This document shows positions 6,142 to 10,193 of a stretch of 64,000 bases of DNA, one piece after another (position 1 is the stretch's first letter; each line of letters begins with the position of its first letter). Location of the stretch: assembly GCF_003634015.1 (NCBI RefSeq), contig NZ_RBII01000002.1, positions 461,597 through 525,596 of the forward strand, written 5' to 3'. This stretch comes from Litorimonas taeanensis. GTDB lineage: Bacteria > Pseudomonadota > Alphaproteobacteria > Caulobacterales > Maricaulaceae. A program made the position numbers and the translations under genes. The notes below the pieces were generated by a model. The model made no database searches. It worked only from the letters and a program-made list of their open reading frames with translations, and was not told the origin of the DNA.

Positions 6142-6708
6142 TTAAATGAAATAAGAAAGCCCCGTGAGTAAGAGGCTTAACCCTGTCACGGCAATTATAC
6201 ACCCTGTCAAAACGGCCCCGTTCCAATCAAAGCCAACGATACGTTTGGCCAGCCGAATATCTATAAAAAGCAATCCCATAAATGCGGCAAAGAAGACACC
6301 ATTTGCGGCCATAAAGGGAAAAATCTCTAAAAGATAAAGTCCGAATCCTAAAGCAGAGACCCACGCCAAAAAGAATACACTCCAATGGCGAACGATGACC
6401 CAAGGTCGCAGTCTATCTTGCTTATCAAAGACCATAACCATCATATAGGCGACGGCTGAAAAGCTCAGTAAATAAACTAAGCCTAGTGTTATGATAACGG
6501 GGGTATTCACTGCCACTTCGACATTCCCTAATGCCGTAGACCGCCCTTTAGCAACAGATAGAGACATAATATAAAAGGCGGGTAAGATAAGTATTTGCGC
6601 GGCAAAAGACACGCGTAATGCCTGCTTCGATAAGTCAAAGAAGCGCTCCCAGTTCGGAATACGGCCAACAGCCGCCATACAGCCTTTTAAATAAGATATG
6701 GGGTTCAT
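6142..6708 (-). CDS. Integral membrane protein of unknown function
   Basis: A 188-residue protein with about five hydrophobic segments (roughly residues 35-52, 70-92, 110-130, 132-150 and 165-187) and a short cytoplasmic N-terminus. The pattern WERFFDLSKQALRVSF before the first segment is not one I can assign. It converges with truA (14 bases apart) and lies downstream of the Hsp70-like gene on the same strand, separated by about 90 bases, so it may or may not be in that transcription unit. Confidence 0.65.
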   Translation of the reverse strand: MNPISYLKGCMAAVGRIPNWERFFDLSKQALRVSFAAQILILPAFYIMSLSVAKGRSTALGNVEVAVNTPVIITLGLVYLLSFSAVAYMMVMVFDKQDRLRPWVIVRHWSVFFLAWVSALGFGLYLLEIFPFMAANGVFFAAFMGLLFIDIRLAKRIVGFDWNGAVLTGCIIAVTGLSLLLTGLSYFI

Positions 6709-6797: not shown

Positions 6798-8768
6798 TTA
6801 TATTAAAAACAACACAGCGCGTTCATCAGCCCGCTCGACTAAGGCTTTTTCCAACATTTGTGTAAGCTCCGCACTAAATCGAGAGGCCGCCGCCGTATCC
6901 CAAGCGGCCGCCACGGCTTTAATCATATCGGCTCTTTGCCGTTTAATCGCAGACTTCACACGTTTATCGGTCAATATTTGACGGGTCAGCACAGGCAGTT
7001 TGGAACGCCGCATTTTACCCGAAATTGCTTTGCGCCCAAAAAGATACCCGCCGCCCAATAATGCGCTGCCAAGAACAATGCCAATTGGATTGACGAAAAG
7101 AGCAGCAAATAAATTAGCTTTGGCCAAAAGCCCGCTAATCAATAAAGCGCTGACCCCCGTTCCTACTAGCGCAGTATCTGATTCAAGAGACGTCATACCC
7201 GGTGCGGATACAGATAATCCTTCGAGGTGACGGCTAACATGCTCGCTCCCATCAAGGCTTAGAACCATTGCCGGTAATCCATGGGCACGGCAAAGCGGAT
7301 CAGTCTGCGCTTCAATATCGCGTTGTAATCCCGCAAACCAACTGTCGATTACGGGACGCAGAGCCTCTTGGGCATGCTGTGATTCAAGCCACGCTTTCAC
7401 TTTGACTTCCAAAGCAGATTCAACCGCGTCTAATGTATCAATCGCGCCTGAGCGCCACTCCCGAAAGGCGGGCAATATACAGTCTTCTGCCATGGCGTCG
7501 ACCAAGACAGGCGAAATTTTGGCGCCCAAGCTCTGAGCGGCTGATTCTGCGCGGAGGCGTACCTCTCCTGTTTCAGAGAGTAATGCGGCCGTTTCTGATT
7601 TGAAACTCCCGTGTAAATACTCAAATCGGCCAAGCCATGCCAAGCCACGAGCAATAGCGAATTCAGGTTCAGCCCCACGAATAACACGGGCCTTGGGAAA
7701 GGCTTTCTGCGTCGCAGGTAAAACCAGAGGCAACCGCGAAGCCCCGCCCGTTAATAAAATAGTATCCGGCGCCCGAAGCGTGTCGCTGCCTTCACTTAAA
7801 CTTTCAATGGTTTCGCGTAGAGCGTAATCAAAAGCCGATTTCCAACTATAACCATTCAGACTTTCCAGCGGGGATTCCAATATTGTTTTGGCATCTTTTT
7901 TATCAATCCGAATATCGAAGAAGACCCGTTTGCCAGCTGGTAATCTTTTAATCATCTCAACGGGTACATCTTCTCCGGTAAAATAAGCTTCTTTGGCTTG
8001 GCGGCACCAATAGGTTAAAATGGCTTTATAGTGCGGATAGGCTTCAATTAATTTTTCTATCTGCTTCCTCGATTTTTGACGTGAGAGATTAAGTTTAAAT
8101 ATCTCATCATCCAGTAAGCCTGAACCGAGTTCATTATGACCAACATCATCTGCCTCTAAATCTCGGCAATAGGTAAAGTCCGTTGTCGATGACCCTATAT
8201 CCACGATTAATACAGAGGCGCGTGTATCCTCTATGGAGACATAACCTTGCTCTAATGCTGTCATTAAAGCCGCGCGGCTCTCTGGAACAATACGCACAGA
8301 CTGTAGGCCCGCATGTTCAAAAACATGACGATATGCCTCACGCGTTGGTATATCCCACCCCGAAGGACAGCCAATGATAAAACGGCTTTCTTTTGCGCCT
8401 CTTATCGTACCTTCCTCTGAGAGTCCCGCAATAAGCGCTTGAGAAAAATAAGTGATAGGTTCGGCGGCCTGCGCGTCTAAATGCCGAGTTTTAAATTTTA
8501 GCCAGACATCAGGTTTATGATGTGCAAAAGATAAGCTGAGCGCATCGGCTCCAATCTTTATCTCTTTCCCGTCTTTGGCGATAGCTGTCACAAAACTTCT
8601 CTGACCCCGATATTCTAGAATTTCGGGTTCCCGCATAGTAGCGCCATAAGCACGCCCCAAAGCAGATTCACCATGGCCTAAATCAAAGCCAATAAATTCC
8701 TCATCCGTCGCGAGTCGTGTTTTTAAGGGCGTAGAAATTTCAGTTTTCTTTTTCATGGGTGTCATCAT
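6798..8768 (-). CDS. Membrane-anchored Hsp70-like ATPase
   Basis: A divergent Hsp70/actin-fold ATPase. From the ATG at 8768 it has 656 residues. The nucleotide-binding motifs are present: phosphate-1 DLGHG (29-33), phosphate-2 DIGSSTTD (190-197) and adenosine loop TGGASR (340-345). The classical beta-sandwich substrate domain and EEVD tail are not recognisable. The C-terminal half is helical and has a strongly hydrophobic segment at about 535-580, then a basic KxMRRSK stretch and an amphipathic C-terminus, so the protein probably sits on or in the inner membrane. The start overlaps the stop of the upstream GrpE-like gene (ATGA, 8765-8768); a TTG at 8783 is possible but less likely. The two genes look like an ATPase and its nucleotide-exchange partner. 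Specific role unknown; it is not dnaK. Confidence 0.75.
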   Translation of the reverse strand: MMTPMKKKTEISTPLKTRLATDEEFIGFDLGHGESALGRAYGATMREPEILEYRGQRSFVTAIAKDGKEIKIGADALSLSFAHHKPDVWLKFKTRHLDAQAAEPITYFSQALIAGLSEEGTIRGAKESRFIIGCPSGWDIPTREAYRHVFEHAGLQSVRIVPESRAALMTALEQGYVSIEDTRASVLIVDIGSSTTDFTYCRDLEADDVGHNELGSGLLDDEIFKLNLSRQKSRKQIEKLIEAYPHYKAILTYWCRQAKEAYFTGEDVPVEMIKRLPAGKRVFFDIRIDKKDAKTILESPLESLNGYSWKSAFDYALRETIESLSEGSDTLRAPDTILLTGGASRLPLVLPATQKAFPKARVIRGAEPEFAIARGLAWLGRFEYLHGSFKSETAALLSETGEVRLRAESAAQSLGAKISPVLVDAMAEDCILPAFREWRSGAIDTLDAVESALEVKVKAWLESQHAQEALRPVIDSWFAGLQRDIEAQTDPLCRAHGLPAMVLSLDGSEHVSRHLEGLSVSAPGMTSLESDTALVGTGVSALLISGLLAKANLFAALFVNPIGIVLGSALLGGGYLFGRKAISGKMRRSKLPVLTRQILTDKRVKSAIKRQRADMIKAVAAAWDTAAASRFSAELTQMLEKALVERADERAVLFLI

Positions 8769-9703
8769 GGCCGCCTGACCCAAACAGTACCGCGCTTTAA
8801 GAGGCGACCTTCTTTTGTAACCAGCGCAGGGGCTGCCATCTCTATTTCGGGGTCGCCTTCATTAATAACGAGAGCAGGTAATTCATCGAACCAATGTGCA
8901 GACGTTTTATCATAGTCTATAGCTTCAACGCCAACCCCCATTAAAAGGGACTTCATTTCTTTCCCGATGACTTCAAGGGCATATTTCCCATCATCTGAAC
9001 TGCGTGCCTCTAGCAAGTTTTGAAACAGAGCCATGAGAGCTGCATTCTCATGCCATTGGCTTTCTGGTTCTGTTTGCACCATTCGAGCCAATATATGGTC
9101 GGCTGTCGCTAAGGCATCGCTGATTTGATTCAAAAATCCAGCGGTGTCGGTGCGAATAAAAGCTTCTGCTGATAAATTACGCCCGTCAGGAGCGGGCAGG
9201 CGGTTTTGAGTTTTAAAGAATGGGATCCGCTCTAACACATTCGACTTAAGTGTCGTAACGGCATGTAAACCCGCTAATAGACCCGCGCTAACCACGACAA
9301 GCCCCGTGCCTTGTAACAGACCTAAGGTCGCTAAGCCGGCCGCGCTGATATAAAACACACCCGGCCGCCAGACTTTTAGACCATCTAACAGGCTTGTCTT
9401 TGGGGCTATCTCAACAATCTGCACATCCGCTTGGGTGGCCCGATCTAATACCCCTGCCCCTGACTTAATAATCTCTAAAAGCCACAGGCCTGATTTTTGT
9501 ATCTGAGGATCAGTCACGCTTCGCGTAAAACTCAGCCCCGTACGGTCCAAGGCGCGCCGCGCCTCCCCAACTACTTGTGCCGGTGTTAAATCTGGCTTCA
9601 AAGCCTTGCGTAAATATGTGCGCTCTTGCGCAAAGTGAAGTGCCAAAGAGGGGGGCGTTATAAGGGTGGTATTTCCCGTTTCTTTCTGCACATTTTTGCT
9701 CAT
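8765..9703 (-). CDS. GrpE-like membrane protein, partner of the Hsp70-like ATPase
   Basis: A 312-residue protein I call GrpE-like from its C-terminus. A helical segment (about 185-255, FLNQISDALATADHIL to VIGKEMKSLL) leads into GVGVEAIDYD, a WFDELPAL segment, then AAPALVTKEGRLLKR and a final GTVWVRRP. This parallels GrpE, where a long helix precedes GV-x-x-ID, F(D/N)PxxHEA and a small beta domain ending LRPAxVxV. Unlike GrpE it has a hydrophobic hairpin at about residues 115-152. Its stop overlaps the start of the Hsp70-like gene. The resemblance is by eye and moderate; an alternative is an unrelated membrane adaptor. Confidence 0.6.
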   Translation of the reverse strand: MSKNVQKETGNTTLITPPSLALHFAQERTYLRKALKPDLTPAQVVGEARRALDRTGLSFTRSVTDPQIQKSGLWLLEIIKSGAGVLDRATQADVQIVEIAPKTSLLDGLKVWRPGVFYISAAGLATLGLLQGTGLVVVSAGLLAGLHAVTTLKSNVLERIPFFKTQNRLPAPDGRNLSAEAFIRTDTAGFLNQISDALATADHILARMVQTEPESQWHENAALMALFQNLLEARSSDDGKYALEVIGKEMKSLLMGVGVEAIDYDKTSAHWFDELPALVINEGDPEIEMAAPALVTKEGRLLKRGTVWVRRP

Positions 9704-10142: not shown

Positions 10143-10169
10143 ACAAAAAAACCCGCCATAATGGCGGGT
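10143..10169 (-). terminator. Intrinsic terminator of the gcv operon
   Basis: On the minus strand, ACCCGCCATTATGGCGGGT forms an 8-bp GC-rich stem followed by a run of seven Ts, 25 bases after the gcvPB stop. Confidence 0.85.
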
Positions 10170-10193
10170 CACAACCTTTACAAATACACAGGG

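Follow-up and report, generated by a model that had tools for sequence, protein, structure and literature searches.

A putative membrane-anchored Hsp70-type ATPase and its GrpE-like partner in Litorimonas taeanensis

What might an Hsp70-type ATPase do when its gene is coupled to that of a GrpE-like membrane protein, away from any housekeeping chaperone genes? The question is raised by a two-gene locus within 64,000 nucleotides of the Litorimonas taeanensis genome (contig NZ_RBII01000002.1, positions 461,597 to 525,596), hereafter the window. On balance, we read the pair as a self-contained, membrane-anchored ATP switch of the Hsp70 type that carries its own localised nucleotide-exchange factor. 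Two minus-strand open reading frames (ORFs) fill positions 6798 to 9703, the interval in which a first-pass annotation had placed such a pair:

6798 to 8768, minus strand: gene of the Hsp70-type ATPase, 656 amino acids from an ATG start at 8766-8768
8765 to 9703, minus strand: gene of the membrane partner with a probable GrpE fold, 312 amino acids

The longest ATPase ORF spans 6798-8783, with a TTG start at 8783 and 661 amino acids. The ATG at 8766-8768, which shares four nucleotides (ATGA) with the partner stop codon, is the likely start. The TTG is disfavoured because many relatives have the same four-nucleotide overlap. ATPase residue numbers below refer to the 661-residue ORF.

The ATPase and its helical C-terminal domain

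Three regions of the ATPase were delineated:

7614 to 8705, minus strand: nucleotide-binding domain, residues 27-390 (alignments A6 and A10; fold match)
6801 to 7613, minus strand: predicted all-helical domain, residues 391-661, where Hsp70 has its substrate-binding domain (AF2 secondary structure)
7014 to 7178, minus strand: hydrophobic hairpin, residues 536-590, a probable membrane anchor (hydropathy of full-length relatives)

An Hsp70 fold had been proposed from the letters alone, and both profile and structure comparisons bear this out. Pfam HSP70 matched residues 134-385 with 28.4 bits against a cut-off of 20.6, and all 45 aligned members of the family matched the same model at a laxer limit. 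Profile search of the PDB aligned DnaK across the whole domain (E 2.6e-12), and Hsp70s were the best matches. The AF2 model (mean pLDDT 79.8) superimposed on Hsp70 nucleotide-binding domains with Z values of 26-28 over about 330 residues (best Z 27.9, 333 aligned), and Foldseek comparison of this predicted structure with Hsp70 gave E 4e-13. Ssz1, a subunit of RAC, and Hsp110 were among the top structural matches.

The nucleotide motifs comprise DLGH (phosphate-1), FK98, CPSGW, PESRAA, DIGSSTTDF (phosphate-2), and GGASR (adenosine). Across the window clade, a second clade, and a cyanobacterial copy from Calothrix, the elements DLGH, FK, CPS.W, ESRAA, DIGSST.D, and GGASR were invariant. Judged by its spacing, FK98 is the probable equivalent of DnaK Lys70 and thus the probable catalytic lysine; the MAFFT alignment disagrees with this placement.

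These matches also bear on a different assignment, in which the ATPase would be a filament-forming or partitioning enzyme of the actin-like ParM/PRTRC-D type, joined to a membrane-anchored adaptor and lacking a chaperone-type cycle. Its best NCBIfam score was indeed for PRTRC system protein D, an actin-like plasmid family (37.4 bits, E 1.4e-9), and models of ParM and MreB matched weakly. However, the PRTRC_D score falls far under the cut-off of 214.8 bits for family-level membership, while the Hsp70 likeness extends through the entire domain. We therefore consider an actin-like identity unlikely.

The first-pass annotation had further described an enzyme with no substrate domain and a hydrophobic C-terminal segment. 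Past residue 390, AF2 predicted only helix and no beta-sandwich, and this helical domain is kept in the second clade and in the Calothrix copy. Although the hairpin region has low pLDDT in the model, hydropathy placed a hydrophobic segment (about 540-590) at the same position in nearly all relatives examined. The DnaK interdomain linker motif (VLLLDV type) was found in none of 45 relatives and is present in the genome's own DnaK, using a strict pattern that misses other DnaKs too. The protein thus appears, from its model and motifs, to be an Hsp70 engine without the substrate-binding sandwich or the interdomain linker.

The GrpE-like membrane partner

The AF2 model of the partner (mean pLDDT 86.5) consists, in order, of N-terminal helices, a hydrophobic hairpin, a long helix, two further helices, and a beta-domain:

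9227 to 9385, minus strand: hydrophobic helical hairpin, residues 107-159, a probable membrane anchor (AF2 model, hydropathy)
8768 to 9151, minus strand: GrpE-like region, residues 185-312, comprising the long helix, the pair of helices that follows, and a beta-domain containing APALV..GRLLKRGTVW

Both elements had been anticipated. The hairpin occupies the same position in nearly all relatives examined; locus L077 has none at a strict Kyte-Doolittle cut-off. For residues 185-312, the likeness to GrpE holds at the level of fold, by Foldseek and VIA. The top Foldseek match was GrpE of T. thermophilus (3a6m; E 0.1, probability 0.95). VIA aligned partner residues 223-312 with GrpE residues 75-169 (81 residues, 3.2 Å) at Z 7.2, a modest value below 8, in a range that chance helical matches reach, yet the GrpE alignment spans the beta-domain, unlike those in neighbouring rows. 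Profile comparison by hhalign gave P 0.0023 with colinear helices, a weak signal that was equalled by 1 of 250 block-shuffled GrpE profiles. Taken from the model, the C-terminus of the partner probably has the GrpE fold and is probably homologous to GrpE, which also argues against an actin-like system. The N-terminal half of the protein was set aside, as its structural matches were unspecific and helical only.

Distribution and genomic setting

Whether the two genes co-occur in related genomes had been named beforehand as a check on the pairing. We searched samples at the level of order (398 genomes), class (385), phylum (398), and close relatives (60). In the order sample, 35 genomes contained the ATPase C-terminal domain and the same 35 contained the partner. 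As 35 of 398 genomes hold both genes and none holds just one, the pairing is not chance, and ATPase and partner are inherited as a unit. The relatives sample agrees: the partner was present in 23 of 60 genomes and the ATPase in the same 23, with one further genome encoding a diverged ATPase whose adjoining partner was missed by the first query. The genes were adjacent in all 48 family relatives retrieved, and named carriers include Hellea, Litorimonas, Algimonas, and Robiginitomaculum.

Beyond the family, the pair was found in one genus of a second family, where the ATPase is approximately 25-27% and the partner 15-21% identical to its counterpart in the window. A second-clade partner gene (G536:C4:79733-80506) showed one internal TGA in the genome search, and the corresponding locus L152 reads as an open frame of 275 amino acids. 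The class and phylum samples yielded the pair in the source genome only. A plasmid search gave one match, on plasmid2 of Calothrix brevissima NIES-22, with 29.5% identity over 95% of the ATPase. Upstream lies a gene of 268 amino acids that matches the partner profile (probability 96, E 3e-9). Near the end of this partner (L153:9006-9895), the coding sequence of the GrpE-like beta-domain shifts to a different frame (LAPALLKGDRLLRRGRVIEP); this copy is therefore either frameshifted or affected by a sequencing error. Integrase genes flank the plasmid pair on both sides.

Location on a plasmid would suit an actin-like partitioning ATPase, but large chromosomal contigs hold most copies of the pair. 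The plasmid copy near integrase genes, like the patchy spread (35 of 398 genomes in the order sample and 1 of 398 in that of the phylum), might also reflect a mobile module for anti-phage defence or stress. We hold this explanation to be very unlikely. PADLOC returned a single weak match (LeoBC, E 0.011) confined to a hydrophobic stretch; no further copies came from phage records, from viral contigs, or from a second search of plasmids; and most copies within the family have apparently housekeeping genes as neighbours.

The pair is not a duplicate of the housekeeping DnaK/GrpE system. Consistent with the earlier remark that dnaK and grpE are absent from the locus, the genome's own full DnaK (C2:598392) and GrpE (C2:683056) are encoded elsewhere on the same contig, about 130 and 210 kb away. 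As a separate observation, loci L142-L146 of the phylum sample contain a second, divergent GrpE adjoining a DnaK-like Hsp70 of about 590 amino acids. These Hsp70s start DnaK-type, as read from the ORFs only, and L145 has a small ORF immediately upstream that may encode a J-protein.

Other genes were considered as components. Upstream of the pair, one element marks its boundary:

10150 to 10170, minus strand: terminator-like hairpin of 9 bp with a T-run, 3' of gcvPB, splitting the pair from the upstream gcv genes

Because this hairpin follows gcvPB, the pair probably forms its own transcription unit. The glycine-cleavage genes were rejected as part of the system, given the intervening terminator and their absence from most relatives' neighbourhoods. 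In 36 relatives, the ATPase is directly followed by a same-strand gene for about 190 amino acids with an N-terminal membrane anchor and a further domain (L066:10583-11167, L107:10602-11186, and 34 others; alignment A8) that had no Pfam or PDB match. It was discarded as an obligate component, being undetected in the source genome and present in many genomes without the pair. A dynamin-GrpE-Hsp70 operon was also considered and dismissed: neither the recurrent neighbours nor the loci read included a recognisable dynamin, and nothing relevant emerged from a literature search. Within the window, the next gene after the pair on the same strand (6142-6708, minus) encodes a hydrophobic protein of 188 amino acids with a weak Yip1-like match; other genes occupy this slot in relatives. 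A DUF1036 protein with a weak peptidoglycan-binding domain is encoded at 686-1813 on the plus strand.

A proposed membrane Hsp70 cycle

In the mechanism we favour, the partner would be the ATPase's dedicated nucleotide-exchange factor. Its beta-domain would open the ATPase cleft at the membrane, leading to release of ADP. ATP binding and hydrolysis would move the helical domain, which would stand in for the peptide-binding domain as the output. Through this motion, a membrane-associated client could be held and let go, or assembled and taken apart. A J-protein is not expected to be required, since the linker through which J-proteins act is missing.

Several features weigh against this scheme. 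ATPases of the window clade lack the GrpE-signature loop found in DnaK, and those of the second clade have a longer segment at its position. The cleft-bridging pair K55/R56 appears changed to L/S, in a region where the alignment is loose. HscA and HscC, which also lack the loop, do not use GrpE (PMC8215388). In the ATPase, His replaces the canonical Thr that follows DLG. Finally, Pfam GrpE did not match the partner, whose GrpE likeness consists of fold and a weak profile signal. Given the deleted loop and apparently altered K55/R56, partner docking would not copy that of GrpE on DnaK; either the details of docking must differ or the partner has another role.

The His substitution and the missing loop would also fit a catalytically weak, scaffold-like Hsp70 relative (cf. 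Ssz1 and Sse1), locked by its partner into a nucleotide-sensing membrane complex or receptor that performs no mechanical work. The high ranks of Ssz1 and Hsp110 in the structural comparison point the same way. Against this, every lineage compared retains the two phosphate motifs, the adenosine motif, and the FK lysine unchanged, and we judge such a scaffold improbable. Returning to the ATP switch with its own exchange factor, we tentatively extend it further: the pair may be a membrane Hsp70 remodelling motor, with a membrane-inserted helical domain in place of the peptide-binding domain and its own membrane-embedded exchange factor of GrpE fold, forming a portable two-gene unit spread between alphaproteobacteria and cyanobacteria.

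Comparison with known systems places the pair apart from each. It shares with DnaK-GrpE the Hsp70 nucleotide-binding fold and, in the partner C-terminus, the GrpE helices and beta-domain, but differs in lacking the sandwich and linker, in its helical membrane C-terminus, in the membrane hairpin of the partner, and, for the window clade, in the deleted signature loop. Membrane-anchored eukaryotic exchange factors, such as the membrane-located BAG-domain protein Snl1 of yeast, illustrate the same principle of localised exchange; however, these have the BAG fold and serve general Hsp70s. E. coli HscC, used with DjlB/DjlC, is a specialised Hsp70 thought to act at the membrane (PMC8215388) and shares the missing loop. 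In contrast to the pair, with its anchored GrpE-like partner, HscC has a substrate-binding domain, its J-proteins are membrane-anchored, and no exchange factor is expected. Cyanobacterial DnaK3 is also a membrane-bound Hsp70 relative (PMC7281324), but is a DnaK-type chaperone, whereas the pair lacks a substrate-binding domain and includes a dedicated partner gene. As in the first-pass annotation, no described system could be matched; searches of profile libraries, the PDB, and the literature outside subscription journals yielded no description of the pair.

GrpE is the only type of Hsp70 exchange factor known in bacteria according to one review (PMC4753570). Another distinguishes three types of prokaryotic Hsp70 and argues against localised exchange on the ground that E. 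coli GrpE is evenly distributed (PMC8215388). If our reading is correct, the pair would provide a natural case of localised nucleotide exchange and would add a fourth kind to the bacterial Hsp70 machines. One could then test whether an Hsp70 engine is able to power a process other than peptide binding.
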